Shown: positions 29,627 to 52,557, numbered from the stretch's first letter. The stretch is 64,000 bases of DNA from Phreatobacter cathodiphilus (GCF_003008515.1 NZ_CP027668.1:496001-560000); one strand, 5' to 3'. The notes: generated from the letters alone by a model not told the origin. Program-made: numbers and translations.

Positions 29627-29929
29627 TTGATCCGATACGGCGTTAACGGCCCAGGGCGCTTTGCAGTGGAATCGTTTCCCGCACCCGTTGATCGGGCGCT
29701 AAACCGCCCCGAACGTGAACGGTTGCAGTTTTTCGGCGATCGTGACGGGTGTCACACTTGCGGAGTTAGGCATCCTGGGGGACTTTTTGAGCGCTGGATC
29801 GCCGATCATCAACGGAATACAGCCCTCAACCCACCAGGCCAGCCGCAGGAAATTTTCCCACAATGTGCGGCGTGTAGTGCGGCTCAAGGTGGCTATGTCC
29901 GAGGAATTCAGCGTCGCGGAGGCTTCTGA
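29627..29929 (+). CDS. zinc-binding, HNH-like toxin domain candidate
   Basis: About 100 residues from TTG 29627 with no good ribosome site, in the same frame as the previous gene and separated from it by one TGA. Paired cysteines CHTC and CAAC flank an ADHQRNTALNPPGQPQ segment with a DH pair, ending QGG. This CxxC-DH-CxxC-QGG layout recurs in C-terminal toxin domains of polymorphic toxins and suggests an HNH-type nuclease. Its stop overlaps the next ATG (TGATG). Activity is inference. Confidence 0.5.
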   Translation: MIRYGVNGPGRFAVESFPAPVDRALNRPERERLQFFGDRDGCHTCGVRHPGGLFERWIADHQRNTALNPPGQPQEIFPQCAACSAAQGGYVRGIQRRGGF

Positions 29930-30300
29930 TGCAGACCGCAAGAGTATGCCCGCCCAATCCCGTCCTGTTCCTCGAAGATGCTGCCGGCGGCGAGCCGCCG
30001 ATCTTCCAGCCTGACGACTTCGCCCGCCAGGCCTGCGCCACGGCCACCACCATCAGTTTCCTGCTCAGTGGAGACCCGGAATTTGAGACGGAAGTCGTCA
30101 TCGGCTCCCGCGCCGAGGTCGATCCCGGTCGTGAGCCGAAATTCGTCAAGGAGATCCCCACCCCGTCACGCCTCATCCGAGTCGTTGAAGTCGACGACAC
30201 CGAGGTCTTCGCCGTTGCTGTCCCGGACGCGACGACGCGGGTCAGCCTCTGGTTCAGCCGGCCTGTTTGGTCGGACAAGGTGATCATCGGCCTCGGCTGA
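29929..30300 (+). CDS. immunity-like protein, copy 1 of a tandem pair
   Basis: 123 acidic residues starting directly on the toxin-like gene's stop. Ends WSDKVIIGLG and contains VDPGREPKFV and SLWFSRPVW; the next gene repeats the pattern NxxLFxED ... VDPGRPPDF ... SIWLSHPEW-PDKVIIGLD. Position right after a toxin-like domain plus tandem duplication suggest an immunity protein. Family not recognised. Confidence 0.55.
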   Translation: MQTARVCPPNPVLFLEDAAGGEPPIFQPDDFARQACATATTISFLLSGDPEFETEVVIGSRAEVDPGREPKFVKEIPTPSRLIRVVEVDDTEVFAVAVPDATTRVSLWFSRPVWSDKVIIGLG

Positions 30301-30363
30301 ATTCGCCACCCGCGGTTCGATATGGACTGGAGGCCGAGAAGCACACGACAGAGGACCCCCGGA

Positions 30364-30732
30364 ATGAAGCGAAGCGTCTCGACGTCCCCGATCAACTCGA
30401 TCCTCTTCATTGAGGATCGCCCCGCCTCGAACATTCCGGTTGTCGACCCGCCGACCGCGCCCGCCTGGGCCACGCCCGACTGCATCATCGTCAAGGCCTA
30501 TCCCGAACAGGATGGCCCGACCGACGTGCTCCTCGGTGACCACACCGATGTTGATCCGGGCCGTCCGCCGGACTTCACCTCGATGCTCAGGACCCCCGGT
30601 GGTCGCGTTCTGGTCAGGGACGTCCTGGATGAGGTGGTTGTCACCATGCCGTCGGCCAGAGACCTGACCCGCATCTCGATCTGGCTGAGCCATCCCGAAT
30701 GGCCCGACAAGGTCATCATCGGCCTCGACTGA
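30364..30732 (+). CDS. immunity-like protein, copy 2 (paralogue of the previous gene)
   Basis: 122 residues from ATG 30364, chosen because its N-terminus (SPINSILFIED) lines up with that of the paralogue (PPNPVLFLED). Conserved C-terminus WPDKVIIGLD. Same remarks on role as for the neighbour; extra immunity copies often accompany toxin loci. Confidence 0.55.
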   Translation: MKRSVSTSPINSILFIEDRPASNIPVVDPPTAPAWATPDCIIVKAYPEQDGPTDVLLGDHTDVDPGRPPDFTSMLRTPGGRVLVRDVLDEVVVTMPSARDLTRISIWLSHPEWPDKVIIGLD

Positions 30733-30764: not shown

Positions 30765-31550
30765 ATGTCCTTCCTCTCCCGTCTCCTCGGCGCTCCCGAG
30801 GCGAAGCGGTCGCGCACGGCCGCCCTCGTCGCGCTGTCGCCGCTCGGCCGGCCCGCCTGGTCCTCGCCCGAGCCGAAGCGCTTCCATGGCGAGGCGCTGG
30901 CGAAGAACCCGGTCGCCGCCCGCGCCGTCGCCCGCGTCGCCCGCGCCGCAGCCGAGATCCCCTTCCAGTTCACGGAGGGAGGGTCGGATGCCTCTGCCCA
31001 TCCGGCGGCGCTGCTGATCGAGCGCCCCAACGAGGGCCAGGACCGCGTGGCGCTTGCCGAGATGCTGGCGACGCACCTGCTCCTCACCGGCAATGCCTAT
31101 GTCGAGGCGGTGAGCGTCGAGGGCCGGGTGCGCGAGCTGCACGTTCTGCGCCCTGACCGCATGCGCCTCGTGCCCGGCGGCGACGGCCGGCCCGCGGCCT
31201 ACGATTATGAGGTGGACGGCCGGTCGCTGCGCTTCGGGCAGGAGGGCGCGGTGCCGCCGGTCCTCCACCTCACCCTGCCGCATCCCTTCGACGACCATTT
31301 CGGCCTGGCGCCGCTGGCCGCGGCCGCGGCCGCCATCGACATCCACAACGCCGCCACCGCCTGGACCAAGGCGCTGCTCGACAATGCCGCGCGGCCGTCG
31401 GGGGCCCTCGTCTATTCCGGCGGCGACGGCACCCTGTCCGAGGACCAGTACGAGCGGCTGAAGGCCGAACTCGCCGACAGCTTCTCGGGAAGCCGCAATG
31501 CCGGCCGCCCCCTGCTGCTGGAGGGCGGGCTCGACTGGAAGCAATTGTGA
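30765..31550 (+). pseudogene. GTA gp3 portal protein, N-terminal part (interrupted by mobile element)
   Basis: Codes for the first 259 portal residues, then three element-derived codons and TGA 31548. The HK97-type portal pattern is clear: N-terminal SFLSRLLGAP, LAKNPVAARAVARVARAAAEIPF, LIERPNEGQDRV.LAEML.THLLLTGNAYVEAV and the end LLLEGGLDWK. The family is expected to continue with a SPKDMDF segment, found 13.2 kb away at 44788. As it stands the product lacks the C-terminal third and should not form a working portal unless the element excises. Confidence 0.92.
31536..31541 (+). repeat. left copy of 6-bp repeat (attL core)
   Basis: TGGAAG, coding Trp-Lys of the portal, occurs here and at 44782-44787. 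Everything between is foreign to the portal. Likely crossover region of the serine recombinase. Confidence 0.75.
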
Positions 31551-31591
31551 TCCAAAGACTCCGAGGGTATTGATGCCCCGACGAGGATCAC

Positions 31592-33160
31592 ATGCACCAG
31601 ACCACGCCCCGACCCAAGGCCTACAGCTATCTGCGCTTCTCGACGGTGGAGCAGGGCAAAGGCGACAGCTATCGTCGCCAGACGGCCCTTGCCGAAGACT
31701 TTTGCCGGGTACGCGGACTCGACCTTGACCGCACCACCACCTTCGAGGACCTGGGAGTTTCGGCCTACTCCGGCAAGAACCGTCGCAAGGGAGCCCTGAG
31801 AGCCTTTCTTGATGCGGTCGAGGAGGAGATCATCCCGGAGGGAAGTTACCTGCTGGTCGAGAGCCTAGACCGGGTGTCCCGCGAGGCAATCCTCGATGCT
31901 CAGGCGACATTCCTGCAAATCGTCAACGCCGGGATCACTCTTGTGACCTTGAAGGGCACTCCTCGCGAGTACTCCCGGGCCACTGTGAACGCGAACCCTA
32001 CCGACCTATTGATCAGCCTGCTGGAGATGATCCGGGCGAACGAGGAAAGCGAGACGAAGTCCCAACGGATCAAGGCGGACTGGAACAGGAAGCGCCAAAG
32101 GGCCCTTGATGGCGAGGCGATCACCTCTCTAGTCCCCGCTTGGCTGGAGCGGTCGGGTAAGGATTTCAAGGTGATTGAGGAGCGCGCCGCCATTGTTCGG
32201 CGCATCTTCTCACTTACCCTTGAAGGAAAGGGGCAGCATGCGATCACCTCGCTGTTCAACAAGGAAGGGATCAAGCCGTTCGGAAGCGCAAAGTGGTGGC
32301 ACCGGAGCTACGTCCGTCTGGTGCTGCGAAGCCCTGCGGTCATCGGCACGTTCGTTCCCCATCGAATGGTCGAGGGCAAACGCATCCCGTTGGAGCCCAT
32401 CCGGAACTATTTCCCGGCAGTCATCGACGTAGAGACCTACGAAGCCGTCCGGGCGCTTGATCAGCCGAGGGCATCACCACCCCGCACCATCGCCTCGATG
32501 TTTTCCGGCTTGGTTCGCTGCGAGGAATGCGGAGGCCCGATGGTCCGAGCGCGGAAGGGTCAGCCCCCGAAACCGTTCTACTACGTGTTCGTCTGCCACA
32601 ACGCGAAGCTCGGCCAGTCCTGTGAATGCAGGACCGTCCGTCAGTCCGTACTTGAGGACGCCCTGAGAGCCGACTTTGTGAGGTTCATTGAGGAAGCCCC
32701 GACCCATGATGATGACCTCACAGCGCAGTTGGAGGCGGTCGAGGATGCCTTGAGTGAAATGCAGGGACGGGCCGCGAGGTTGGTCGAGGCAATCTCTCAA
32801 CGCCCGCTAGCGCAACTGGTTGATCGGCTTGCAGAGGTGAACGAAGGCGTAGCCGAATTGAAGGAGAAGCAGGCAGAGCTGACCGCTGCGTTCCGAGACA
32901 CCGCTCGACCAGTGATGCTCAAGCGGCTCGCTGACCTATCAGACCTACTGGAAAGCCAAGACAGCGAGGTCACCCCCCGAATCCAAGTGCAGTTGCGCCA
33001 GGTTCTGGACCACATCGTTGTCCACTTCGACCGTGAGGCGTCCCGACGTAAGCCCCGAGGCTACATAGAGTTCGTGTGGAAGGGGGGCGGCAGGTCATAT
33101 CTTGACTGGGGGCCGGTGTTCTATGCCGCGTCGATGCGTGACAGGCGAGCAAATCGCTGA
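31592..33160 (+). CDS. large serine recombinase (site-specific integrase)
   Basis: 522 residues, GAGGA before the ATG. Resolvase catalytic domain with nucleophile Ser17 in YLRFSTVEQ and conserved ESLDRVSR; a Recombinase domain (about 165-280) with HAITSLFNKEGIKPFG; a zinc ribbon CEECGG...CHN..LGQSCEC (about 312-345); and a coiled-coil (about 370-440). This is the full architecture of integrases that insert and, with a directionality factor, excise phages and islands. Its place just inside the left end marks it as the element's own integrase. No obvious directionality factor is recognised nearby. Confidence 0.95.
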   Translation: MHQTTPRPKAYSYLRFSTVEQGKGDSYRRQTALAEDFCRVRGLDLDRTTTFEDLGVSAYSGKNRRKGALRAFLDAVEEEIIPEGSYLLVESLDRVSREAILDAQATFLQIVNAGITLVTLKGTPREYSRATVNANPTDLLISLLEMIRANEESETKSQRIKADWNRKRQRALDGEAITSLVPAWLERSGKDFKVIEERAAIVRRIFSLTLEGKGQHAITSLFNKEGIKPFGSAKWWHRSYVRLVLRSPAVIGTFVPHRMVEGKRIPLEPIRNYFPAVIDVETYEAVRALDQPRASPPRTIASMFSGLVRCEECGGPMVRARKGQPPKPFYYVFVCHNAKLGQSCECRTVRQSVLEDALRADFVRFIEEAPTHDDDLTAQLEAVEDALSEMQGRAARLVEAISQRPLAQLVDRLAEVNEGVAELKEKQAELTAAFRDTARPVMLKRLADLSDLLESQDSEVTPRIQVQLRQVLDHIVVHFDREASRRKPRGYIEFVWKGGGRSYLDWGPVFYAASMRDRRANR

Positions 33161-33184
33161 CTACCCTTGTCCCGTAGTACGGCG

Positions 33185-34459
33185 CTAGCGTTTGGATGTC
33201 CTTTTGTGGCTAAAAACCGAATCCAACGGCGGCGGTGGCTCTGCATCAGACGCCGCTAATCGCCGAATGTCCGAAATGTACTCGGCGCTGATCCCACCGA
33301 AATCAATGTTAGCGATACTCAGGCGACTTTCCGGATGTTCGATCCCATCCAAATCACGCATAGAATCATAGTGGTATAAGGCCTGACGAAGTACGAGATT
33401 ATAGTCGTAACGGGATTTCTCTCGAGCGTGAAATTTGCGTATCTCCTCTTGGTACTGAAAGAATTCTTGTGCGTGGCGATGCATTAGTAGGCGGGCAGTA
33501 CGAGCGACCGGCTCTGGTGCCCGTTCACCGCCAAAGGCAACAAAAGATAGAGCCCTAGCAAACCGGAGTTTCTGTTTTTCGTCGGCCTGAACAACAGCCT
33601 GGGTCACGAACGCAGGCAAGTCTTTGATGGAGCGATACCGGAAGGGTGTTCGGGGGAAACCCCTTGACAAGTACCGGCCATAAAGCCCCCTCGGAAATAG
33701 ATCAAGAAATGTATCATAATCTTTAGTAACGTCAATTATTGTGGGAGCGAGCCGCGACGACAGTCCGTTTATAAAGTACCCGAAAAATACGTCTTTTGTT
33801 TCTTCCTTATTTAAAATATCATCGTCGATTGCGGCAATAAAACTCTGGAGTCTGTCGAAAGAGACCTTAACTGCAAAACGGCGCAGCCATTCATTGGCCG
33901 TTTTGTTTAAGCTTAAGTCAATCGGGTGGGGCGGAGCGGCTACTTGCCGACTGTGCCTCACAGCAGTTCGGAAACGTGAAATCCAGTAAGGCGAACTGCT
34001 CGGCGGTGTTTCAAACAACCCCCAAAACAAGCGTTTCAGTTCGTCGGCCTGCCAGTTTCGGGACCGCTCTTCCAATGCACCGGACTCAGCTTCGCTAAGG
34101 AGTTTGGTCAAGTCTCGGAAAACCGGACTATCATGTGCGTCAGCGGGCCAAAGAAACTGAAGGTTGCGCGGAGCTAGATCTCCGCTGATGACTTGGAAGG
34201 CGTTATTGATCCAAACCGGAATAGGGCATGGATCGCCTATCCGCAATTGAATCGGTTTCATGGACACTGGAAGAGATTCGATATTGTATTCGTCAGGGTC
34301 AACCAAGTCAATAAACTGAATGACTCTAAGGCTTGTATCGCTCTCTGGCACGAAAAGCGAATTGTAGTCTGGGTGGGTCACAATAGGCACGCCGATGCCG
34401 CTGGCTGTCTTAGTGAGCTTTATATATCCATAAACTACACCGCTCTCGATACGTTTCAT
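33185..34459 (-). CDS. unrecognised 424-residue protein, second gene of a two-gene operon
   Basis: 424 residues; starts in a 4-base overlap (ATGA) with the preceding gene, which suggests a stoichiometric complex or toxin/antitoxin-like unit. The sequence is soluble, rich in Arg, Asp, Phe and Leu, with no membrane helix and no motif I can assign (segments such as SRNWQADELKRLFWGLFE and SRYDYNLVLRQALYHYDSM look helical). The C-terminus ends basic (HKRTSKR). GC is clearly lower than the host genes, consistent with recent acquisition. A defence role is a guess from context. Confidence 0.7.
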   Translation of the reverse strand: MKRIESGVVYGYIKLTKTASGIGVPIVTHPDYNSLFVPESDTSLRVIQFIDLVDPDEYNIESLPVSMKPIQLRIGDPCPIPVWINNAFQVISGDLAPRNLQFLWPADAHDSPVFRDLTKLLSEAESGALEERSRNWQADELKRLFWGLFETPPSSSPYWISRFRTAVRHSRQVAAPPHPIDLSLNKTANEWLRRFAVKVSFDRLQSFIAAIDDDILNKEETKDVFFGYFINGLSSRLAPTIIDVTKDYDTFLDLFPRGLYGRYLSRGFPRTPFRYRSIKDLPAFVTQAVVQADEKQKLRFARALSFVAFGGERAPEPVARTARLLMHRHAQEFFQYQEEIRKFHAREKSRYDYNLVLRQALYHYDSMRDLDGIEHPESRLSIANIDFGGISAEYISDIRRLAASDAEPPPPLDSVFSHKRTSKR

Positions 34460-35241
34460 ATTACGATGCCGTTCTTTTTGTATATCGCGGCGACGTGCTC
34501 ATATATGGAATGATAGTAATTTTCAACGTTAAGTGGGTGAATAGGGTACGTTCTGATTGTTTTAGTTATCTTTCGGATGGCCTTTATTAGCTCATTGTCC
34601 CTAGCGTATTCATCAGGCATGACGACGCCGAGTATATCCTCTGAAGAAAGAGGGATATCTTGATCAATCTGAATTTCGATTGTGGCGGCGCGGTCATCGG
34701 TTTTTGCAGAGCCGTTGTCCTGCATCAATCGCGATACAGCCAAAACTTCTTGATGACGCGGACCAAGTGAATGCGTGGTGCTGATATCATCTAAGCTGTT
34801 CGGTTTACGTTGAAAATAGCGTTTCGGTTCACCAAAATAAAAAGAAATAAGCCTTCCAACCTGAGCCGGATCAATGCCGCAGTCGAACCGTTCTAGATCG
34901 AAAACCGTGACGTAGGCAGGCAGGCGACCTGACGCGAATGCGCCCGAGTCAAACGGGAAAATGCGCTTTATTGGCGGTAATTCGCTGAACCGAATGACAA
35001 ATACAAGAGGTAACTGCCAGAACGAGGCCTCTCCGTCGAAGCGAACCTTGTAGGCTGGCCTACCCACGAAAAGGTAGCAGAGTTTTTCCCCATGGAAAAC
35101 ATTGCAAGGGGTAGCCAAAATTTTCCCTCCCCCGACGATGTCAAAGATGTTCTTCGATAGCGTCGAGTGGGTCCAAGGTAGGTTGGTGGCAGTCCCGAAG
35201 TTTCCTGAGGCGAGCAAATCGCCCAGCCTGACCGCTTTCAT
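34456..35241 (-). CDS. unrecognised 261-residue protein, first gene of a two-gene operon
   Basis: 261 residues with GGAGG 7 bases before ATG 35241. Mixed alpha/beta sequence: CNVFHGEKLCYLFVGRPAYK and WQLPLVFVIRF, FPFDSGAFASGRLP, then a C-terminal helical part (NELIKAIRKITKTIRTYP). No family recognised. The compact YLFVGRP.Y and FPFDSGAF segments would fit a small catalytic or nucleotide-binding core but I cannot name one. AT-richer than the chromosome. Confidence 0.7.
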   Translation of the reverse strand: MKAVRLGDLLASGNFGTATNLPWTHSTLSKNIFDIVGGGKILATPCNVFHGEKLCYLFVGRPAYKVRFDGEASFWQLPLVFVIRFSELPPIKRIFPFDSGAFASGRLPAYVTVFDLERFDCGIDPAQVGRLISFYFGEPKRYFQRKPNSLDDISTTHSLGPRHQEVLAVSRLMQDNGSAKTDDRAATIEIQIDQDIPLSSEDILGVVMPDEYARDNELIKAIRKITKTIRTYPIHPLNVENYYHSIYEHVAAIYKKNGIVI

Positions 35242-35403
35242 ATAAAACCTCCGATTGAGCCAAAATGATCCATGTCGCCGCGGATGTGGTCAAGGGTCAA
35301 ACATTTCCCCTGCTTCCCTTGAGGACCCTCGGTGACGGCGTGTGATTGGGGTTGCGTATTCGTCAGAAAAGAACATAACAGGAACATTAGCTCGGAGAAA
35401 GCA

Positions 35404-35628
35404 ATGACCCAGCCACGCCACAGGGACCGCGAAATCGTGTCCGAAGCGATCACCGAAGCCGACATCGATGAGGTGCTTCAGGAGTTCGGTGGCGACACCC
35501 GGCAGGCAGTTCGGGCGCTGCTGGAGGACATAGCCGTCCTTGCCCTCGATCGGGCCAGGGCAATCTCCACCGGCTTCGTTCGTGGCCAGCGTTTCCATGG
35601 TGCCATCGACACCCTCAAGCTGCCCTGA
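35404..35628 (+). CDS. small acidic/helical protein, unknown
   Basis: 74 residues from ATG 35404 with GGAGAA upstream; the 24-codon extension to 35332 lacks a ribosome site. REIVSEAITEADIDEVLQEFGGDTRQAVRALLEDIAVLA is helical. Stop overlaps the next ATG (TGATG). Divergent from the unknown operon. No family recognised. Confidence 0.6.
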   Translation: MTQPRHRDREIVSEAITEADIDEVLQEFGGDTRQAVRALLEDIAVLALDRARAISTGFVRGQRFHGAIDTLKLP

Positions 35629-35858
35629 TGCCCCGCAATGTCACTGTGGCGGGAGCCAAGGCGGAGGGCGTGAGGGGCGCGTGGGTCCGTTGCCGGGCTG
35701 ATGGCTGCCGGAACTTCGCCTACCTGACTTGGGAAGCGATGAGGCTGACACCCGCTGACATGATCGATGACGTACAGTGGCGACTCCGCATCCGTTGCTC
35801 GGTCTGCGGCAGCAGGGAGGTATCCATCCGCCCTTACTGGGTCGAGCCTTCCTCCTAG
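35628..35858 (+). CDS. small zinc-ribbon protein
   Basis: 76 residues, translationally coupled to the previous gene. VRCRADGCRNFAYLTW and RIRCSVCGSREVSI give C-x4-C and C-x2-C pairs, a likely zinc ribbon. Overlaps the convergent HNH gene end by 4 bases. Might bind DNA or RNA; function unknown. Confidence 0.6.
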   Translation: MPRNVTVAGAKAEGVRGAWVRCRADGCRNFAYLTWEAMRLTPADMIDDVQWRLRIRCSVCGSREVSIRPYWVEPSS

Positions 35859-36757
35859 GTTGCTCTGAAGACCTCCCTGCGATGGAACTCTAGAGCAGCT
35901 GGAGAGGGCCAGACGGATGATCTTGAAGGAGTCCTTAGGCGCCTGTCGGCGAGCGATGCATAAGGTGATTTGGCCAATCGAGGGCTTACCTCCACCTTCA
36001 GTTCAGGGGAGACGGAGATAAGTCCGTCGTCGAAGAGGCGATGAAGATCCACTCTCAGACAAAGGCCATTCTGTGGGTGGTCGCTCAATGGGCTTACATA
36101 CGGCTGGATATGCGCGGCTTCCAGAAGTTGAGGGAGGCCAGTGCCGCTGACCGCACACTTGCCACCGTAGTTCTCGATTACAGCCTGCCGAAACGCAGCC
36201 TGGCCGGGGCGGTCTTTGCGGCTTGCGAGAATGCGGTTCGCTTGGCCATCCACCAGTGTGAAAGGGCGGCTGGGCCTCAAGAACCCTTCCATGATAGGCG
36301 ATAGCGGGTCCGGTCCGTCGAAGGTTTTGTACTTCACCACCTCGTTCGGAAACGTGACGCCGTAATCCTCAGCCCTAACGTAGCTGTCTTCGTCGAGGGT
36401 CACCAACCCACTAAGTTCGATACAGCCGATCACCGGGTCTTCGATGGGCCGATATGTGACCGACCGCTTCGTGGCAAACCCCGCAATCTTCTCGACCAGT
36501 TCCGACGCGCTGCTGACACCATTGCCCAACCCGTATGCCGCCCAAGCGTCCGCGGCCCTGCGGTCTCGGTAGCCCTCGAAGTTTCCAAAGCCGCCAATCC
36601 TTCTGACCGGGGCCTTCAGCATGAAGTACAGCCGGTCACCGCGTTTGAGGGACCGGACTCCCCATGGCGTTGGAGTCCAGAAATTCACGAGAGGGCCGAA
36701 TCTCCCCTCGTGCATCTGGCGGAACCAACCTAGGTCTGTGGGAGCAATTGCGAACAT
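35855..36757 (-). CDS. HNH endonuclease family protein
   Basis: 300 residues. The C-terminal half is an HNH_2-type domain: FRQAVIENYGGKCAVSGTG, EAAHIQPY, and the conserved NGLCLRVDLHRLFDDGLISV. The N-terminal 150 residues (FWTPTPWGVRSLKRGDRLYFMLK; GGFGNFEGYR) form a PUA/EVE-like sensing module often fused to such nucleases and thought to read modified bases. Candidate modification-dependent restriction enzyme, by inference. Confidence 0.85.
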   Translation of the reverse strand: MFAIAPTDLGWFRQMHEGRFGPLVNFWTPTPWGVRSLKRGDRLYFMLKAPVRRIGGFGNFEGYRDRRAADAWAAYGLGNGVSSASELVEKIAGFATKRSVTYRPIEDPVIGCIELSGLVTLDEDSYVRAEDYGVTFPNEVVKYKTFDGPDPLSPIMEGFLRPSRPFTLVDGQANRILASRKDRPGQAAFRQAVIENYGGKCAVSGTGLPQLLEAAHIQPYVSPLSDHPQNGLCLRVDLHRLFDDGLISVSPELKVEVSPRLAKSPYASLADRRLRTPSRSSVWPSPAALEFHRREVFRAT

Positions 36758-36858
36758 GACTGGCAGTCATCCGAGATGGTGTACAAGGCCAAAATCTATC
36801 GCCCGGCGTCCTTGCCTATGTCGAGGCGATAGCTGATCAGCACAAGCCTGAGGTCCCC

Positions 36859-37512
36859 ATGTGGAACATCTACAGCCTAACGAAGGGCCAGCAGGCGATC
36901 ATCGAGCTGTCCCGGGCGCTTATCGACCGCACGGGCAATCTTCCCCCCATGCCAGGCATCTTCCCGGACTACCCGGCTCCTATCGTGAGGAACTGTGTGG
37001 ACGGTCGGGAGCTAGCCTTAATCCGCTGGGGTATGCCTTCGCCGCAGTTTGCCTTGAAGGGGAGTACTGCGGACCCGGGCGTCACGAACGTCAGGAACGT
37101 GGCATCCCCGCATTGGCGTCGGTGGCTCGGCCTGGAGCATCGCTGTCTCGTCCCATGGACGAGCTTCTCGGAGTACGGGACGACGCCCGAGGGTAAAAAG
37201 GCCCCGGTGTGGTTCGCGCTCTCTGAGGACCGCCCTCTGGCGTTCTTTGCGGGCATCTGGACGACATGGACCAGCACAAGGAAGACTAAGGAGGGCGAGG
37301 TGACCGCAGAACTCTTCGGCTTCCTGACGTGCGAGCCGAATGCCGAGGTTGGAGCCGTTCACCCGAAGGCCATGCCGGTCATCTTGAGGGAGCCTGAGGA
37401 GCTTAAGGTCTGAATGTGTGCGCCGTGGGAACAGGCGAGGGGGCTCCAGAGGCCGCTGCTGGACGGGGCGCTGCAAGTCATTGGCAGTGGCGCAAACGCC
37501 AGCGAGCGCTGA
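36859..37512 (+). pseudogene. SRAP (YedK/HMCES-like) abasic-site protein, broken
   Basis: The frame gives 184 residues to TGA 37411-37413, then continues open for 32 codons that read as the normal family C-terminus (APWEQARGLQRPLLDGALQVI). One TGG-to-TGA change would explain it. The N-terminus is MWNIYSLTKGQ where the family has MCN: catalytic Cys2, which crosslinks to abasic sites, is Trp (TGG for TGC/TGT). Other family parts remain (LIRWGMPS, HRCLVPWTSFSEY, FAGIW, PKAMPVIL). SRAP genes often accompany mobile elements and the SOS response. Likely inactive for crosslinking. Confidence 0.8.
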
Positions 37513-37672
37513 GAACTCTAGTGCAAGGCGCTGAAATTTTTCTAATTCACAAGGGATCACGGCTTCTTATGCTCAGCTTCGTTTAAAAAGCTCAAACCAG
37601 CCAGCGTTTCAGACAAAGTGACCATAGGTCCAGGCTGTCGTGTAGTGGGACAGCCTCCAGACCGTTTCCATC

Positions 37673-38335
37673 CTAAAGGCCGGCTGCCGCACGGCAACTA
37701 GCGTGAAATCGGGAGAGGCTCGGCGAGTGAGTCATAGCTGTCTGCAAAACTTGGGGTCGAGCAAGCTCTCTCGAAATATTGCTGTAAGCGCGGTGCTCTT
37801 TTTGCATTCTAATTCGCTTATGAGAAAGAATACGTCGAAGCCGATTTTCACAGTTTAAAGTCGCTTTGCGATCAACATCTCTTTCGGCGTAAATAGGTAA
37901 TATCCAGCATTCAATTGTGTGAACAGAAATTGCAAAAATTACAGGTTTATTTAGTGCTTCTAATCTATTGGCTCCTATTTTCTCGATGCATGTATCGATA
38001 AGTTCTTTGGAGAATTGTGCGCAGTCTCGTTGTCCGCCGTCCTCATCAACTCGAATGTTTATGTTGGTATGTGAGCAGCAGTCGCTATCAAGGTGAATTA
38101 CGATAAAATCGTTGGCTTCTGCAGCTGTCTCCAAAAGCTCGGAGCAGCATTTCTCAAGGACGAGTTCCCAGCCCGCGTGCGGAGCCTGCCATCTTTGATG
38201 CGTTGCATCGCGCATTGGTTGAACGGGGTTGACCTGAATCTGCCATTCTTGATCGCCGAAGACCCCATGCAGCACATTTGTCAGGACGGACTGATCGGTG
38301 ACGCCCTCGGTAAAAAGCGCAAACGTCTTAATCAT
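37673..38335 (-). CDS. TOPRIM-fold-like partner of the AAA ATPase
   Basis: 220 residues; ATG overlaps the ATPase stop by 4 bases. FALFTEGVTDQSVL (Glu10) and FIVIHLDSDC (Asp83, Asp85) are the spaced acidic motifs of TOPRIM-like nucleases such as OLD/RloB/DUF4276/DUF4435 relatives. VISVHTIECWILPI follows, as in DUF4276-type proteins. With the upstream ATPase it forms a two-gene system of the OLD/PARIS class. I cannot say which subfamily. Confidence 0.7.
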   Translation of the reverse strand: MIKTFALFTEGVTDQSVLTNVLHGVFGDQEWQIQVNPVQPMRDATHQRWQAPHAGWELVLEKCCSELLETAAEANDFIVIHLDSDCCSHTNINIRVDEDGGQRDCAQFSKELIDTCIEKIGANRLEALNKPVIFAISVHTIECWILPIYAERDVDRKATLNCENRLRRILSHKRIRMQKEHRAYSNISRELARPQVLQTAMTHSPSLSRFHASCRAAAGL

Positions 38336-39576
38336 ATCGGTGCCAGCCCACCCAGTAGGCCGTCCAGGTAGTAGCTGGAGAGCTTGCGTGGCCTACCACT
38401 ATCGGTCAACGCGGGGGCGCTCACCTGGTTGATCCGGGTCTCCCCGAACGGACCTCTGGAGACGACGAAGAGCCGGTTCGCTGTGTCTGAGATATCAAGT
38501 CCATCAAGCACGGCCGGGCTATGCGTCGTGATAAATAACTGCTTTCGCCGTCGCTTTGCGGCTTTCGACATCGCGGTCATGAGCGCCTGGCAGAGGCGCG
38601 GATTTAATGACGTCTCGACATTGTCAATTGCGAAGATGCTTGGGGTCAGTCGAGAATAGACCAAGGAAAAATAAAACAATAGATAAAGAAATCCTTCATT
38701 GGCGCTACTTAACTCAAGATATTTGGTGTTTATTGAAAAAAATGTGTCCTTTAGTGCAATCGTTGTTGACGAATTTGATTGTATCAGATCGAAGTCGTCA
38801 AACCACTCAAGCATTCTCATGTCATTTTTGATTTCTGTGATGTCGTCTGCGAAGTCGCGCTGCATTACTTCGAGTAGCTTAAGAAGGCCTTCGCCATGCC
38901 GACCGAGCGGCTCGATTTGCCCTTCGGATTGGTAGAGTTGTAAGGATGAGTTCTCAGGTGAATACACAACAAAATTTGCCAAGGCCTCATGGCTCGGGAG
39001 CAATCGCAGCCACGAGCGGAGAAGGCTTTGGATTAAAGGATTTTCTTTATCGGCTTCCACCGAGATTTTAACTCGAAATCCACCATCTATCTTCTCGAAA
39101 GGCGCATCTTTCATCTTCTTGAATATAGAAAGAAGAAGCTCCTCGCTATTTTTTTTCTTCAATGTCGCGCTAGCTTGAATTTTTGAATAGTTCTGCAGCA
39201 GCTCTGTGAAGCTTATTTCTTTGGGGGCGCGACCATGATAATAGCACTCCCAGCGTCCATATGGCTCATTGTTATGATTAAACTCACAGGTGACTGTCCC
39301 TTCGTTCTGGTATTTGGCAGAAATCAGTATCGGTTTATTCTGCCCCTCGTCATTAAAGGCTGAGCGCATGTGTTCGGGGCGGGATACGCGCAGTCCGCGA
39401 GAAGATAGAAATTCATTATCCAGTCTATCTGCGCGAGCGGCACCAACGAGAGAGATAGCCTCGAGGACGTTGCTTTTTCCGGCGCCATTTGCGCCTATAA
39501 AGACATTAACTCGGCCTAGCGATATCGCCGAGTCGACTATTGATTTGTAGTTTCTGATGCGAAGGGTTTTCAGCAC
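38332..39576 (-). CDS. AAA family (OLD/AAA15-21-like) ATPase
   Basis: 414 residues from GTG 39576. Walker A GANGAGKS (28-35) after LKTLRIRNYKSIV, a mid signature region (LSSANEGFLYLL), Walker B with IFAIDNVETSLNP (Asn where DE is usual) and the H-switch ITTHSPAVLDGL. This is the SMC/OLD-type ATPase seen in defence pairs with TOPRIM or RloB-like partners. First gene of the operon; AT-rich compared with the host. Confidence 0.88.
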   Translation of the reverse strand: MLKTLRIRNYKSIVDSAISLGRVNVFIGANGAGKSNVLEAISLVGAARADRLDNEFLSSRGLRVSRPEHMRSAFNDEGQNKPILISAKYQNEGTVTCEFNHNNEPYGRWECYYHGRAPKEISFTELLQNYSKIQASATLKKKNSEELLLSIFKKMKDAPFEKIDGGFRVKISVEADKENPLIQSLLRSWLRLLPSHEALANFVVYSPENSSLQLYQSEGQIEPLGRHGEGLLKLLEVMQRDFADDITEIKNDMRMLEWFDDFDLIQSNSSTTIALKDTFFSINTKYLELSSANEGFLYLLFYFSLVYSRLTPSIFAIDNVETSLNPRLCQALMTAMSKAAKRRRKQLFITTHSPAVLDGLDISDTANRLFVVSRGPFGETRINQVSAPALTDSGRPRKLSSYYLDGLLGGLAPI

Positions 39577-39905
39577 GTTCTGGCAATCTTTGACTGCGGC
39601 GGGGTGCTCAGTGATAACACAACGGTTGGGAGCGAGTCAGATTCTAACTTCGCTGGCATAGATCACACCTGCTTGGCCTTGAGACGTCTCTCCAGCGGCG
39701 GTCGTGCCAAGCTTGAAAGTGGGCCTCCTGAGCATGCCTGCATCCCGGATGTTTAGAGCAACTATGCGAGCCGGCGTCGATCTAGCCGCACGACCGATAT
39801 TCCCCCCTCCCGGGGTGCCTCATGTCAGGTGCTCGGCTGTGTCTGGATGATGTGCGTTTCAGTTGGCACGCTGGATTTAGGTTCCTGTGCGTCCTCTTTA
39901 GGCTC
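39577..39905. other. 329-bp intergenic region, nothing coding seen
   Basis: Between the ATPase start and the resolvase stop. Short frames lack ribosome sites and protein-like composition. Should include the ATPase promoter; exact boxes not assigned. Confidence 0.4.
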
Positions 39906-40478
39906 TCACCCTACCGCAGTGACGCTCCTTTCCTTCGCCGGGCTGATGATGCGGTAAACCGAGGCCCTGCCGATGTTGAGCCGGCGGGCAATCTCGGTTG
40001 CTCCAAGGCCAGCCGCCTGCATCTCTTTGACTGCTGCCATATCGATGCTGGCAGGGCGCCCCTTGTAGACACCGGCCGCCTTGGCCTTCGCGATGCCTTC
40101 CATCTGACGTTCCCGCCGTAGGTTGGTCTCGAACTCAGCGAACACCCCCAACATGTCGAGAAACGCCTTGCCAGCGGCCGTTGAGGTGTCGATCGGCTGA
40201 TCCGTGGCTCGTAGGCTGCCACCCTTAGCCCTGACCTGCCGCACGATGTCCTGGAGGTCCGCGATGGAACGGGCGAGGCGGTCAACGCGGGTGACCATGA
40301 GCACGTCCCCATGGCGCATGAAGTCGAGGATGGTTTGTAGCTCGGTCCTTCCATCCACGGTGCTCCCCGACTTCTTCTCCTGACGGATGATGTCGCAGCC
40401 GGCCTTGTTGAGGGCTTCGATCTGGATGGTCAGGTCTTGGTCAGTCGTGCTGACGCGGGCGTACCCGTAGATGGCCAT
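39906..40478 (-). CDS. small serine recombinase (resolvase/invertase family)
   Basis: 190 residues. Catalytic Ser10 in YGYARVSTTDQ, conserved TRVDRLARS and the C-terminal HTH (AAVKEMQAAGLGATEIARRLNIGRASVYRI). This is the Tn3 resolvase/Hin-Pin invertase type. It acts on short inverted or direct sites near its gene. No terminal inverted repeats or transposase seen, so it is probably an independent resolution or inversion gene within the island. Confidence 0.93.
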   Translation of the reverse strand: MAIYGYARVSTTDQDLTIQIEALNKAGCDIIRQEKKSGSTVDGRTELQTILDFMRHGDVLMVTRVDRLARSIADLQDIVRQVRAKGGSLRATDQPIDTSTAAGKAFLDMLGVFAEFETNLRRERQMEGIAKAKAAGVYKGRPASIDMAAVKEMQAAGLGATEIARRLNIGRASVYRIISPAKERSVTAVG

Positions 40479-40917
40479 GCGTATGCTCCGGTGTCTCGTT
40501 TGAATCTAGACTCGGTAGCTATGGCGTCTTGGAAATCAGACGTCAACCCAAATGGGACGCCCATGGCGTCTCGGGGTTGTGCCTCGCATGGGTATACCCC
40601 GGAGAGACAATCCCACGCTTTCTGGCACGCATGCGGATAGCGGTGTCCCCACCCGCCCAGATATCCCCCACTCAAGATAGAGCGAACGCCGAGGTTGGCC
40701 TCGCCTGTCCGTTTTGGGACCGCCTAGATCCACTAGCCAAGAGACCTACTGGCTCGCGGCTCCGCGCTCCCACTGCGTCGAAGTTTGATACCCCCCACTC
40801 AAGCTAACGGTCGTCATGCCGTGGCGGCCTTCCATCCAGTTGCTGGCCTGTCTCAACCGCCTTGGTGTCTTTCCCGAGGCTCAATAGCTGCGTCCATGTA
40901 GGCGCTAAAGGAATCCC
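40479..40917. other. 439-bp region without supported gene, holding 20-bp direct repeats
   Basis: No convincing ORF. An imperfect 20-base direct repeat GATAYCCCCCACTCAAGMTA occurs at 40660-40679 and 40787-40806. It lies upstream of the resolvase, so may be a target or regulatory repeat. Confidence 0.4.
40660..40806. repeat. imperfect 20-bp direct repeat pair
   Basis: GATATCCCCCACTCAAGATA (40660-40679) and GATACCCCCCACTCAAGCTA (40787-40806): 18 of 20 bases identical, 127 bases apart. Confidence 0.7.
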
Positions 40918-41229
40918 ATGTCTTCCGCCCTCAACTCCGTCATCTGCCCGAACTCCGCTCGTTCGGCCGCCGCTGTCGACATCAGCTTCTGCGATGAGTT
41001 CAGCGCCCAGAACTTCCGTAGCATGCCGGTCGGAGCGTGGGCCTTCGCCAGTCAGAAACGCGGCGCGCCCTTTGCAGTTCTTCGTCATCCTGAGGATGGA
41101 TGGGTGGCGTTCGGTCTCCGCGGGACCAAGGGTCCGAGAAGCTTTAAGGAAGCTCCGCGCACGTGGTCGTTCCTGCGCTCCGCAGTTGCCGGAGAAAAGA
41201 TCACCGTCGCAATGAGTCACGCCGACTGA
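40918..41229 (+). CDS. unknown small protein, 103 residues
   Basis: AAAGGAA lies just before ATG 40918. Contains a compact middle (FRSMPVGAWAFASQKRGAPFAVLRHPEDGWVAFGLRG) that reads like a small beta-rich domain. No family recognised. First gene of the replication-like module that continues with the zinc-finger, helicase and RNase H genes. Confidence 0.55.
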   Translation: MSSALNSVICPNSARSAAAVDISFCDEFSAQNFRSMPVGAWAFASQKRGAPFAVLRHPEDGWVAFGLRGTKGPRSFKEAPRTWSFLRSAVAGEKITVAMSHAD

Positions 41230-41279
41230 TTGCAGGCACTGCCTATCGACTTCTCCATTGAACCGCGCCTGTCCCTTAG

Positions 41280-41984
41280 GGGGCGGGCGCAACTCTCTGC
41301 CGTCTGACAAATCTCAGAAAGTTCACGACTATTTGCCGTGCACTCGGATGCGGTGCCCGAACGACCCGCTATGGGCGCTACTGCAACACCCACAAGTCCC
41401 GCCTTCGACGCCATGGAGACGTTGAACAAGAAGCCATCACCAAGACCGACCTCAAGCCATATCTCGACCTCATCGAACGAAGGAGACTGACCAATCCCGC
41501 CAACCCCTTCTGGACCGCCCTCCAAGAGCGCTGGAGTAGTGTCTGCAAAGACGCGGAAGCCACCATCGCCTTCCTGTCGACCAGGGCTGGCCTCAGGTCC
41601 GACCTCCAATCCGCCAAAGAGGTCCTGAGGCTGCAATCATCCTGCGACCCTCGGGCCGTCATCGACACCACCATGGCCATGTTCATGATGCTGGAGATGG
41701 AGCCTCGCCGGTTCAGGACTGATGAAGCCTTCAGTCACCAACTCGTAAGGCGGGTGAGGGGGCTGACCGAGACCAATGCAGGACGCTGGTTCGACCACCG
41801 TTCCGGCAAGGTGAAGAGAGCCTATCGCGACCTCCCACCCCGTACAGCCAGAATCATGGCCAGCATTCTCGCCAAGGCTCTCGGTGGAGGTGGTCTCACC
41901 CTCGCCAAGCTCGAAAAGCGGGACCAGGAGGACCGTCATCGGTCTCGCCATGCTCTCGCAGACGGAGCCGCGACGCTGACCTGA
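41280..41984 (+). CDS. zinc-finger protein, start codon uncertain
   Basis: The frame is open from after TAG 41277-41279. Protein-like sequence begins near 41313 (RKFTTICRALGCGARTTRYG) and includes CRALGC...YCNTHKSRLRRHGD, a zinc motif common in phage and HNH-like proteins, then about 170 helical residues (FWTALQERWSSVCKD; FSHQLVRRVRGLTE). The first in-frame ATG is only at 41673, well inside the homologous-looking part; no ATG/GTG/TTG with a ribosome site precedes 41313. Either a non-standard start (CTG 41304) or a lost start. Confidence 0.55.
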   Translation, partial: GAGATLCRLTNLRKFTTICRALGCGARTTRYGRYCNTHKSRLRRHGDVEQEAITKTDLKPYLDLIERRRLTNPANPFWTALQERWSSVCKDAEATIAFLSTRAGLRSDLQSAKEVLRLQSSCDPRAVIDTTMAMFMMLEMEPRRFRTDEAFSHQLVRRVRGLTETNAGRWFDHRSGKVKRAYRDLPPRTARIMASILAKALGGGGLTLAKLEKRDQEDRHRSRHALADGAATLT

Positions 41985-41997
41985 GCCTGACCAAAAA

Positions 41998-42040
41998 GCC
42001 CCCGTGATGCATCAATCTTCTGCATTGCGGGGGCGTTTCT
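41998..42040 (+). terminator. terminator hairpin, first of a near-identical pair
   Basis: GCCCCCGTGATGCA...TGCATTGCGGGGGC followed by GTTTCTT. Same stem sequence as at 42094-42135. Confidence 0.75.
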
Positions 42041-42093
42041 TCCGTCCGGTCTGACCACCGGGCTGGAGCCCCTGACCATCCCCAATCCCAATC

Positions 42094-42135
42094 GCCCCCG
42101 TGATGCCAAAGAGAACGGCATTGCGGGGGCTTTTT
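42094..42135 (+). terminator. terminator hairpin, second of the pair
   Basis: GCCCCCGTGATGCC...GGCATTGCGGGGGC directly followed by TTTTT. Ends 18 bases before the helicase-like gene. Confidence 0.8.
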
Positions 42136-42153
42136 CATTTCTGGACCCCTCGA

Positions 42154-44046
42154 ATGACCATCAACTCCAACATCACCATCGACGCCCTTGAAGCCGCATT
42201 CTGGGCAGCCCTAGACCTCCAGTCTGCTGACCGTGGCCGGTCCATCACCGCCTTCGACCGTTCTGTAGCAGCCACCATTCTGGATGCTGGCAGGCAGGCC
42301 ATGCAGGACCGTGCTTCCGACCACGCAATGTACCGGGTGGTCTCGGCCCCGACAGGCTCGGGAAAGTCCTCCTTCGCCTTCGGTCTCATCGCAGCGCTGG
42401 TGGAAACCCAGACGGATGCCTCGGCCGTCTTCCTCTGCCAGACCATCGACCAGAGCGAGGAGACCTACCGTGAACTCGTCAAGCTGATCGGGGCTGAAAG
42501 GCTCGCCATCTGGACGGGAGCCCATGATCGTTCTCGGACAGATGAGTGGAGCATGGCCAACTATGGGTTCGTGCCGCTGGCTCGGTTCAGCAAGGACGAC
42601 CTCGACGCCTATCCCGTGATCATCGCGACCCATGCCCTCTACAAGGGTGTCGATGGCGCGAAGGCCCAGACCTTCCGCGGTGTGCCCCGGACCCTGACCA
42701 TCATCGATGAGCGGCCGGATGAGGTTGCACTGTTCGACATCGATCAGGGGGATGTCCGCAAGGTCCGTGACTGGATCATGCGGGAGTTCGGTGAGGAGAG
42801 CGCAGCCTTCATCGCCGTCACCGACCTCGACAGATACCTTGAGGCGGTCTGGAACGCTCCTCGCACTGGCATGGGAAGCTACAAGGCGCTCAAGCTCTCC
42901 AGCCAGTCGTGGTTCAACTCCGTCGAGGCTGACTTCCTCGGTCGGAATGATGAGGTGGAGGAGGTGGTCCGCAATGTCATCGGGTTCGCCCGGGCGCTTG
43001 CCACCGGCTACGCCTTCATGTCCCGCTTCGACAGTCCGAAGGGCGGCTGCTTCGTGGGTTACCGGCTTGCCATGCCGGTGGTTCCGGGGACAGTGCTGCT
43101 GGATGCCACAAGCGACATCGACGGGGTCACCCCGCTGGTGTCGTGGCGGAGCCAGGTGCCTTCGCCGAAGGTGTCCTTCGACAACCTCACGGTGACCCTC
43201 CTAGCTCCTCCAAGGCTCGGCAAAGGGCGCGGGAGGAACATCAAGGACATCACTCGGAGCGCGAAGACGGCCGAGCCCTATGCCGCGTGGATCAAGGAGA
43301 CTGTCATCGCGAGGACTGAGCCAGGAGAAAGCGTTCTGGTCATCGCCCATAAGGCGCTCTTCGACCATCGCTACCTGCCCGGAAATGACAGCTTCGGTGA
43401 TGATGCTGTTGTCTGGCAGGGCCGGAAGGTCGCCTTCAGCCACTGGGGGACTGGCATTGGATCAAACCGCTGGAAGCACGCCACCAGCGTCTTCCTGTTC
43501 GGTGAGTTCTATGCACCCCGCCGGGTGTTCGTCGGCCAGTACCACGGGCTCGTGGACCAGCCCGCCAGCACATCGGCCTTGGCCTCCATCAGGGGACCTC
43601 GGACGAACCATAAGCACTTCAAGGCGCTGGAGGAAGGCCACCTCCTGCGCTGGATGAAGCAACTCGCCATGCGCGGCAACGCCCGCAACATCTCCGAAGA
43701 AGGGGTGTGCGGTCGGCAGAGGCTGTTCATCACGACGGACTTCGACCGCTTTTTGCGCCATCGGGCCAACCTGTTTCCGGGGGCGGAGCTTGTGATCGAC
43801 CCGTCGGTGATGGGTGGCGAGACCAAGGCCCGGGGCGCTGAGGCTATCGCTGCTCTCCTGCTGTCCACTGATGACGACCTGCTCACGTCAGTCCAGGTGA
43901 TGGAGCGTACAGGCGTCGACCTTGGCAAGCATGGGGCCCGTCTCATGGCGAGCCCCGCTCTGCAGGTGGCTATGCGGGACGCCGGTTGGTCGTTCAACCC
44001 CGGTCGGGGCAGGGGCAACACAAGCAACTTCGCTCGCCTCGGCTGA
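42154..44046 (+). CDS. SF2 (DEAD/DEAH-like) helicase-like protein
   Basis: 630 residues from ATG 42154. Walker A APTGSGKSS (65-73), VFLCQTIDQSEETY, PVIIATHALYKG (motif Ib/II region) and TIIDERPDE (motif II, DER in place of DEAH). The C-terminal half has VLVIAHKALFDHRYLP and a small tail (VMERTGVDLGKHGARLM). No nuclease motif is seen. Resembles helicases of phages and plasmids. Probably replication or repair of the element; follows two terminators so must have its own promoter or be read through. Confidence 0.75.
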   Translation: MTINSNITIDALEAAFWAALDLQSADRGRSITAFDRSVAATILDAGRQAMQDRASDHAMYRVVSAPTGSGKSSFAFGLIAALVETQTDASAVFLCQTIDQSEETYRELVKLIGAERLAIWTGAHDRSRTDEWSMANYGFVPLARFSKDDLDAYPVIIATHALYKGVDGAKAQTFRGVPRTLTIIDERPDEVALFDIDQGDVRKVRDWIMREFGEESAAFIAVTDLDRYLEAVWNAPRTGMGSYKALKLSSQSWFNSVEADFLGRNDEVEEVVRNVIGFARALATGYAFMSRFDSPKGGCFVGYRLAMPVVPGTVLLDATSDIDGVTPLVSWRSQVPSPKVSFDNLTVTLLAPPRLGKGRGRNIKDITRSAKTAEPYAAWIKETVIARTEPGESVLVIAHKALFDHRYLPGNDSFGDDAVVWQGRKVAFSHWGTGIGSNRWKHATSVFLFGEFYAPRRVFVGQYHGLVDQPASTSALASIRGPRTNHKHFKALEEGHLLRWMKQLAMRGNARNISEEGVCGRQRLFITTDFDRFLRHRANLFPGAELVIDPSVMGGETKARGAEAIAALLLSTDDDLLTSVQVMERTGVDLGKHGARLMASPALQVAMRDAGWSFNPGRGRGNTSNFARLG

Positions 44047-44134
44047 CGGCCGCGCCCGCATCTCCCTTTCACAACAACAACGGCCGCGCTGGCAGACCCG
44101 CCAGCGTGGTCCTCATCATTTCAAAGGAACCATC

Positions 44135-44623
44135 ATGACCATTCACATCATCGCTCCGCCGCTGCCGCAGACGCCTCATATCGTTGTCGCGACCGACGGC
44201 GCATGTCTTGGCAACCCCGGACCCGGAGGCTGGGCTTTCGTCTATGCCGGCGGAGGGCAGCAGGCCCAAAGGTCCGGCCACGAGGCCGACACCACCAACA
44301 ATCGTATGGAAGCCCGCGCAATCATCGAGGCGCTGATGCACCTTCCGCCTGGCGAGCGTGCCTGCATCCTGTCCGACAGCGAGCTGACCGTGAAGGGGCT
44401 CAACGAATGGCGGCAGGGGTGGAAGGCTCGTTGCTGGAGGAAGTCGAACGGAAAGCCGGTAGCCAACCGCGACCTCTGGCTCCGGCTAGATGAACTCGCG
44501 TCGGTCATGGGTGACGCTGTGAGCTTCCATTGGGTGCGGGGACATGCAGGCCATCCGCTTAACGAGGAGGCTGACGGGCTGGCCAACGCTGCAGCCGCAG
44601 AGGCGGCGGTGTTGGCGCTCTAG
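44135..44623 (+). CDS. rnhA: ribonuclease HI
   Basis: 162 residues, AAAGGAA upstream of ATG. The four catalytic acids are present: Asp21 in ATDGACLGNPGPGGW, Glu59 in NNRMEARA, Asp81 in LSDSELTVKG and Asp147 in NEEADGLA. It cuts RNA in RNA/DNA hybrids. An extra, element-borne copy fits a replication module with the helicase-like gene 88 bases upstream. Confidence 0.93.
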   Translation: MTIHIIAPPLPQTPHIVVATDGACLGNPGPGGWAFVYAGGGQQAQRSGHEADTTNNRMEARAIIEALMHLPPGERACILSDSELTVKGLNEWRQGWKARCWRKSNGKPVANRDLWLRLDELASVMGDAVSFHWVRGHAGHPLNEEADGLANAAAAEAAVLAL

Positions 44624-44742
44624 AGTAACTCAGAGGCAAAGGCGCCCGTCTTTCATCAGAGGGTGGGCACTTTTGTCGCTCATTTTTGTGCTGGAGGAGA
44701 GGGCGTTAGCGGACGCTGGTGGGACATATCCATCGTGCCATG

Positions 44743-44756
44743 CCAAAACGTTTTGG
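44743..44756. repeat. 14-bp perfect palindrome at the right end of the element
   Basis: CCAAAACGTTTTGG, followed by CAATTG. CAATTG also occurs at the left end right after TGGAAG. Possible recombinase, directionality-factor or regulator binding site. Confidence 0.55.
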
Positions 44757-44781
44757 CAATTGGGTGTGTCCTGTTAATAGT

Positions 44782-44787
44782 TGGAAG
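44782..44787 (+). repeat. right copy of 6-bp repeat (attR core)
   Basis: TGGAAG, in frame with the portal 3' part. Pairs with 31536-31541. Confidence 0.75.
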
Positions 44788-45162
44788 GCGCTGTCGCTGT
44801 CGCCGAAGGACATGGACTTCATGGAGGCCAAGCACGGCGCCGCCCGCGAGATCGCACTCGCCTTCGGCGTGCCGCCGCTGGTCCTCGGCATTCCGGGCGA
44901 CGCCACCTACGCCAATTACCAGGAGGCCAACCGCGCCTTCCACCGCGACACGGCTCTGCCGCTCGCCAGGCGGATCATCGGCGCGCTGACCGGCTGGCTG
45001 GTACCGGAGGGAACGCTCCACGCGACCCCCGACGAGGACGCCATCGGCGCCCTCCACGCCGAACGCGAGAGCCTGTGGCGGCGCATCGGCGCGGCGGGGT
45101 TCCTGTCGGACGGCGAGAAGCGCGAGGCGCTGGGTTATCCGCGGGAGCGGCCGGCGGTGTGA
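44782..45162 (+). pseudogene. GTA gp3 portal protein, C-terminal part
   Basis: Reads WKALSLSPKDMDFMEAKHGAAREIALAFGVPPLVLGIPGDATYANYQEANRAF..., the normal C-terminal third of HK97/GTA portal proteins, ending TGA 45160-45162. No own start or ribosome site. Fused to 30765-31541 it gives about 382 residues, the expected portal length. Confidence 0.93.
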
Positions 45163-45724: not shown

Positions 45725-46255
45725 ATGCTGCCGAGAGCCTTCCTCCTCTTCATGGTGCCGATCGCCGGCCTCGCCGTGCTGCGGCCCGACGCTTTCGAGA
45801 CGCTGCTCGGCTTCGCCGTCCATCGCGCCCCGCCGGCCGCCACCGCCACCCCCGCCGCCGTCCCGGCCGGCGGCAACGGCGGCTATCCGGCCAAGCGCCT
45901 CTATGCCGGCCGCGACGGCCATGTCCGCGCCCGCGCCCGGGCCGACGGCCGCGCCTTCGACGTGCTGGTCGACACCGGCGCCACCATCGTCGCCTTGACC
46001 TGGGCGACCGGCCTCGATCTCGGCCTCGTCCGGCCGGGCATGGCCATGGACGCGCCCATGCAGACGGCCAACGGCCGCGTCATGGGCAAGCGCGTCACCA
46101 TTCCGCGCCTCGAGGTGGAGGGGCTCGCCGTCGCCGCCGTCGACGCCGTGGTGCTGCCGCAGGGCGCGCTGGCGGTGAACCTCCTCGGCATGAGCTACCT
46201 GTCGAAGCTGCGCCGTTTCGAATTCGCCCAGAACACCCTGCTTCTGGAGCAATAG
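45725..46255 (+). CDS. retropepsin-like aspartic protease (TIGR02281 type)
   Basis: 176 residues with an N-terminal membrane helix (FLLFMVPIAGLAVL). The catalytic motif VDTGATIVALT and LLGMSYLSKLRRFEF fit the clan AA, TIGR02281 family. Such proteases are periplasmic or membrane-anchored. Unusual within a GTA cluster, possibly simply a host gene nested there. Confidence 0.82.
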   Translation: MLPRAFLLFMVPIAGLAVLRPDAFETLLGFAVHRAPPAATATPAAVPAGGNGGYPAKRLYAGRDGHVRARARADGRAFDVLVDTGATIVALTWATGLDLGLVRPGMAMDAPMQTANGRVMGKRVTIPRLEVEGLAVAAVDAVVLPQGALAVNLLGMSYLSKLRRFEFAQNTLLLEQ

Positions 46256-46293: not shown

Positions 46294-46491
46294 ATGATCC
46301 AGACCCTTCTCCACCGGCTGCGGCCGGAACGGACGCCCACGCCCGCCGTCGACCCGATCCGCCGCTTCGTCGAGACGCTCGCCAGGCTCGAGGAGCGCCG
46401 CCCGCCGCCGCCGCGGGGCGGGGGCGGGCGCATCAGCGCCCTCGATCTCGTCGCCGCGCCCTTTGCCCGTTCGCCGCGGAGCCCGTCATGA
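46294..46491 (+). CDS. small basic protein before prohead protease
   Basis: 65 residues, stop overlapping the protease ATG by 4 bases. Arg/Pro-rich (LLHRLRPERTPTPAVDPIRRFVETLARLEERR). No family recognised. Coupling to the protease supports reality. Confidence 0.5.
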   Translation: MIQTLLHRLRPERTPTPAVDPIRRFVETLARLEERRPPPPRGGGGRISALDLVAAPFARSPRSPS

Positions 46492-46946: not shown

Positions 46947-46979
46947 CCCGAACCATCTGCCACTGGTCACCTCCCTGAG

Positions 46980-47003
46980 CCCCGCCTTCGCGCGGGGTTT
47001 TTT
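46980..47003 (+). terminator. internal terminator hairpin before the capsid gene
   Basis: CCCCGC-CTTCGC-GCGGGG directly followed by TTTTTT. Lies between prohead protease and capsid genes on the same strand. Confidence 0.75.
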
Positions 47004-47036
47004 GCGTTTCTCCACCCCCAAGACCCCGAGGACCCC

Positions 47037-48293: not shown

Positions 48294-48366
48294 TCCGGCA
48301 TCGGCCGGACTGATCCGGCCCGGCAGGCCGGCTAGGCTTTAAGGCCTCGGCCTGCCGGAGGCTGCC

Positions 48367-48704: not shown

Positions 48705-48709
48705 CAGCC

Positions 48710-50307: not shown

Positions 50308-50451
50308 GTCGTCACCTCGGTTCGGGGTCGGGTCCGAGAAGGCCCGTGCCCGTCGCCCGTGTCAACACGAAGGCGGCGGGCGGCGACCACACGCCGTCGT
50401 GAACCGCGACGCCCGTCACCGCCACGCATCACCAGCACCCGCGAGGCCCCG

Positions 50452-52020: not shown

Positions 52021-52035
52021 GGACAACGAGGCGCC

Positions 52036-52540: not shown

Positions 52541-52557
52541 GCCGAGGGAGAAAACCC

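Follow-up and report, generated by a model that had tools for sequence, protein, structure and literature searches.

Mobile elements that interrupt a gene and carry a serine recombinase have well-described precedents. In skin/sigK, the fdxN element, and the comK phage A118, a serine recombinase gene is located by one end of the element, and the interrupted reading frame is restored when the element is lost. Regulated excision has been shown for these systems, whereas the island described here is known from sequence alone and interrupts a GTA gene. In Acinetobacter, mobile and defence elements are known to insert in comM, and the AbaR islands and defence elements found there (PMC11472951) resemble our island in being cargo or defence islands that interrupt a DNA-exchange gene. 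They differ in moving mostly by Tn7-like transposition, in belonging to gammaproteobacteria, and in occupying a recipient-side gene. The sr1WO prophages of Wolbachia, an alphaproteobacterium, have a large serine recombinase and lie inside the Mg-chelatase/comM gene (PMC9203015); these are complete prophages with comM as the target, and we liken them to the lineage of our island by recombinase type and target only. Searches of open-access papers turned up no description of an element that integrates site-specifically into a GTA structural gene. The element itself is of a familiar kind; what appears to be new is its target, the use of that target by two diverged elements, and the connection with comM recombinases.

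The stretch of DNA analysed here (64,000 nucleotides from Phreatobacter cathodiphilus, hereafter the window) is part of a single-contig, complete chromosome of 4.49 Mb. A 13,246 bp island (31536-44781) interrupts the GTA portal gene between the codons for LDW and K. The sequence TGGAAG occurs on the + strand at 31536-31541 and again at 44782-44787, a spacing of 13,246 bp, and both junctions are as described in the initial annotation. The 5' part of the portal gene (30765-31550, + strand) encodes residues 1-259 of 383, after which the island supplies QL and a stop codon. In the integrated state, the N-terminal part therefore reads LDWKQL and stops at 31550, two codons beyond the junction. The 3' part (44782-45162, + strand) runs from WK-ALSLSPKDMDF to the stop codon. 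Joining the flanks in silico at TGGAAG gives one 383-residue frame, MSFLSRL...GGLDWK-ALSLSPKDMDFMEAK...ERPAV. Removal had been expected to restore a single in-frame portal of about 382 residues; the frame is as predicted and the length is one residue greater. GC content is 57% in the island and 71-74% in the flanks.

The initial annotation had staked its proposal in advance on an uninterrupted portal gene in relatives, and intact portals are found in eight congeners with 79-96% identity over 381-383 residues. Congener DNA is continuous across the joint (GACTGGAAGGC), and an empty attB is thus present in related species. None of the 11 congeners searched has the island's recombinase. A spare GTA portal was not found in the genome; the other portal match (G000:C1:373631-374395, outside the window) is distant, at only 29% identity. 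This second portal-like gene is perhaps derived from a prophage.

The left TGGAAG core marks the junction of portal and island and is followed by the recombinase-side arm CAATTGTGATCCAAAGACTCC. The right core marks the return from island to portal, with the far-side arm TCCTGTTAATAGT just before it. From these ends, the attP of the island is predicted to be CCTGTTAATAGT-TGGAAG-CAATTGTGATCC, and the chromosomal attB would be the portal stretch coding for GGLDWKALS. Based on the symmetry of the arms, we infer that the central AA dinucleotide is the crossover point, which places the crossover probably within the core, at the AA of CTGGAAGC.

The large serine recombinase of the island (31592-33160, + strand, 522 residues) contains the Pfam domains Resolvase, Recombinase, and zinc ribbon. 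Its gene begins 50 bp within the left repeat and is therefore located just inside the left end, where it had been placed from the start. Downstream are two cargo proteins of 424 residues (33185-34459, - strand) and 261 residues (34456-35241, - strand), whose reading frames overlap by 4 bp and which have no match in Pfam, NCBIfam, PADLOC, or PHROGs. These are followed by a protein with an HNH endonuclease domain (35855-36757, - strand; PF13391), a possible defence nuclease that matches a PADLOC HNH model with an E-value of 1e-22, and by an SRAP (SOS response associated peptidase) protein (36859-37413, + strand; PF02586). A candidate defence pair comes next, consisting of a PDC-M31B-like protein (37673-38335, - strand; PADLOC E 3e-10) and a PDC-M31A-like AAA ATPase (38332-39576, - strand; PADLOC E 1e-67; AAA_21). 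The remaining matches are a small serine resolvase/invertase of 190 residues (39906-40478, - strand; PF00239 and PF02796), a helicase-like protein of 648 residues (42100-44046, + strand; PF04851 ResIII, E 1.5e-5), and ribonuclease HI (44135-44623, + strand; NCBIfam E 7e-45). The suggestion that the island offers defence genes is borne out to the extent of one PADLOC candidate pair (PDC-M31A/B) and the HNH protein, all of which are candidates only. A PDB search with the recombinase and the M31B-like protein gave nothing useful. No virion, packaging, or capsid-hijack gene was recognised among the island's matches in Pfam, NCBIfam, and PHROGs, with two proteins matchless, and no relaxase or type IV secretion gene among those in Pfam and NCBIfam. 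By these matches, the element is a compact island of cargo genes and neither a prophage nor an ICE.

When GTDB contigs were scanned with the recombinase, one close relative, at 64% identity, was found in Methylobacterium sp. Leaf99 (NZ_LMMU01000001.1). The Leaf99 recombinase gene adjoins the C-terminal part of that strain's GTA portal gene, and the N-terminal part is located 8 kb away, ending at the same GGLDWK. The element is 8,057 bp long and has a CTGGAAG core at each end. It follows that the ends of the window island are common to another insertion, as the initial annotation had required of its proposal, with the same codons and the same core. In Leaf99, the two arms are near-perfect inverted copies of each other (TTGTGAACGTAGGACCTCG / TTGTCAACGAAAGACCTCG), and the left arm of the window island (TTGTGATCCAAAGACTCC) is similar to the Leaf99 arm. 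In an alignment of the two recombinases, the catalytic-type serine in AYSYLRFST is kept in both. The two elements are alike in portal codons, core, recombinase, arms, small resolvase, and the presence of a candidate defence pair, which in Leaf99 is PDC-M19A/B. They differ in size (8.06 versus 13.2 kb), in their unrelated cargo, and in the position of the recombinase gene, which in Leaf99 is found at the other end of the element with respect to the portal. A near-palindromic attP would account for the recombinase gene being found on either side. A shared cargo was considered and rejected, as the only proteins common to both elements are the recombinase (64%) and a generic small resolvase (36%). 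We found no publication on the Leaf99 element.

Because two diverged elements cut it at identical codons, the GTA portal is a genuine attachment site, as first proposed for the window island; the empty sites in congeners agree with this. A chance 6-bp repeat is ruled out by the combination of the congener empty site, the Leaf99 insertion at the same codon, and the step in GC content.

Portal occupation is real but rare. A portal match is present in 229 of 338 genomes in the order sample, a count that includes a few distant prophage portals, and the only portal split at the island site is that of the window's genome. The genus of Leaf99 gives a similar picture, with a portal match in 87 of 111 genomes and a single split there, in Leaf99 itself. 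No further close relatives of the recombinase were found in 398 genomes of the order, 385 of the class, and 397 of the Leaf99 family, and the distant relatives from the order and class searches have no portal piece beside them. Odd portal matches in G331, G087, G168, G073, G053, G056, G019, and others were followed up and proved to be frameshifts, contig ends, or partial matches, leaving no second split portal in the order sample. Viral contigs held no recombinase relatives, whether searched by protein or by a two-row profile. An attL-like DNA pattern had 47 matches in these contigs, two of them with a distant portal match and none with a recombinase relative. Among the best matches in phage and plasmid collections, recombinase relatives are all below 40% identity.

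The more distant relatives of the recombinase are found predominantly in comM. Thirty of 39 such relatives (31-45% identity) lie beside a piece of comM, which encodes YifB of the Mg-chelatase family. In 28 of these 30, the comM part is at the start of the recombinase and is cut at one Walker-A site, between AAAGGHNLL and ..GPPG, with both orientations represented. Of the other two, L061 has comM at the far end from the recombinase, and L054 is in comM at a different site near the N terminus. In the recombinase tree, the window and Leaf99 proteins form a pair with 100/100 support, with L054 as the sister branch (95/82). The portal pair is nested inside a clade of 12 sequences (100/99), and the remaining members, 10 of 10, are all in comM. 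The comM gene is open in both portal hosts. The alphaproteobacterial comM islands (L113-L124 and others) resemble the window island in their related recombinases, similar attP arms, size of 3.6-16 kb, and, in some cases, candidate defence cargo, with an AbiU-like gene in L116 and a type II methyltransferase in L124. Inverted-repeat arms are common to the portal and comM elements, and comM-element arms such as TTGTCAACAATAGACCT in L122 match those of the portal elements. The comM islands differ in their target, which is a gene for recipient-side DNA processing and not a GTA structural gene. Two comM loci merit separate description. In L124, a sister recombinase is located at the second comM site near the N terminus, with part of comM at 18408-18301 and the rest from 12762, and the cargo comprises a DNA methyltransferase and a protein that weakly matches a restriction enzyme. 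Genome G888 has near-identical recombinase copies (L062 and L073), one in comM and one elsewhere, which suggests a secondary site.

The simplest history is a change of target within the recombinase lineage, from comM to the GTA portal. In Rhodobacter and Bartonella, cells are reported to require ComEC, ComF, and ComM to take up GTA DNA (PMC10883770, PMC6899734). As ComM is thus reported to be needed by GTA recipients, the target of the lineage appears to have shifted from a recipient-side to a donor-side gene of DNA exchange.

We interpret the element in the window as a cargo-carrying, site-specific integrative island that uses its own large serine recombinase and disables GTA while integrated, with the island as the likely beneficiary, and we assign this reading a probability of roughly 0.7. 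The integrated island would leave the portal cut off at about residue 260 and separated from its last 120 or so residues, so that no DNA-filled GTA particle would be made while the island is in place. Given the function of portals, DNA packaging should fail because the portal is split. Excision, probably requiring a directionality factor, would return a scarless portal. The benefit would most likely fall to the island, since its host would escape both GTA-linked death and the packaging of its genome, and there would be less local gene exchange able to delete the island. Work in Caulobacter reports that death upon GTA induction depends completely on the GTA (PMC9632790) and that lysis requires the core GTA cluster (PMC13236601). 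A broken portal may for this reason keep both host and island alive, although a portal mutant might still die through lysis genes that are expressed from outside the cluster.

A broader proposal, which we advance tentatively and at clearly less than even odds, is that the lineage is specialised in shutting down gene exchange. Most of its members would act on the recipient side, through two sites in comM, and one branch on the donor side, through the GTA portal. Such islands would carry defence genes and would guard themselves against being deleted by incoming homologous DNA, or against host death linked to GTAs. That a single recombinase lineage has targets on both the recipient and the donor side is what suggests a conflict with gene exchange. 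A plainer account, to which we give about one chance in three, is that portal and comM are merely conserved, non-essential landing sites and that GTA loss is a neutral side effect. Both genes are widely conserved in the order, and the sr1WO recombinases of Wolbachia use the Mg-chelatase gene and, once, an intergenic secondary site (PMC9203015). The portal half-site also mildly resembles that of comM, falling in the top 1% of window positions when scored with a weight matrix of the comM left half-site. This resemblance is weak, and we rejected likeness to comM as the whole reason for the change of target; it would be a mild help rather than a full explanation. Many conserved dispensable genes exist, yet this one lineage uses two comM sites and the portal, all of them in a single DNA-exchange pathway, which is suggestive evidence against a passive choice of site.

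We also considered whether the island might serve the host as a switch, keeping GTA off and being excised in a subset of cells upon GTA induction, in the manner of skin/sigK, fdxN, or the comK phage. Scarless restoration of the portal is predicted in silico, and large serine recombinases perform this role elsewhere; the window recombinase itself has weak NCBIfam similarity to XisF, far below the family cut-off. Both portal halves remain constrained, with dN/dS of 0.06-0.14 against congeners, similar to the neighbouring terL and prohead protease genes. These low values fit a recent insertion and occasional portal use after excision equally well. Long-term retention in the lineage would be expected of a switch, whereas none of the 11 congeners has the island, and its cargo is not preserved in the Leaf99 element, unlike that of fixed developmental elements. 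Moreover, GTA producers lyse, so that a cell from which the island is excised would leave no descendants and excision would need to be linked solely to production. The absence of the recombinase from congeners and the unconserved cargo make the switch a minor and unlikely rival. The location of the nearest recombinases in comM points to selfish disabling of gene exchange as at least as fitting. An assembly artefact or a decayed one-off insertion lacking site-specific recombination is extremely improbable; nothing was found in its favour, the genome is complete in a single contig, a second species with different cargo is cut at the same codon, and the recombinase has an open frame and conserved domains.

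If the island does disable GTA while integrated, it represents a natural GTA-off genotype for which matched congeners with an empty site exist, and whether mobile elements and GTAs are in conflict becomes testable. This touches the open question of how lethal GTA production is maintained and what works against it. The predicted attP/attB pairs, with two targets in one lineage, should also be useful for studies of target change in serine recombinases.

The GTA cluster on either side of the interrupted portal includes the terminase large subunit (27302-28870, + strand) and a region encoding the prohead protease, capsid, and g6-g15 (46488-60080, + strand), and the rest of the cluster matches that of congeners. 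Two related small ORFs without a known family (29929-30300 and 30322-30732, + strand) lie between terL and the portal, and their homologues vary in number and place among congeners. A gene for a retropepsin-like aspartyl protease (45725-46255, + strand), conserved in six congeners, is located between the portal and the prohead protease. Between the capsid gene and g6, a pair of trypsin-like proteases is encoded antisense to the cluster (48710-49564 and 49564-50307, both - strand). This pair is an unexpected cargo for a GTA cluster; it is conserved in seven congeners and occurs at the equivalent place in Leaf99 (L050:4276-5028 and 5025-6032).
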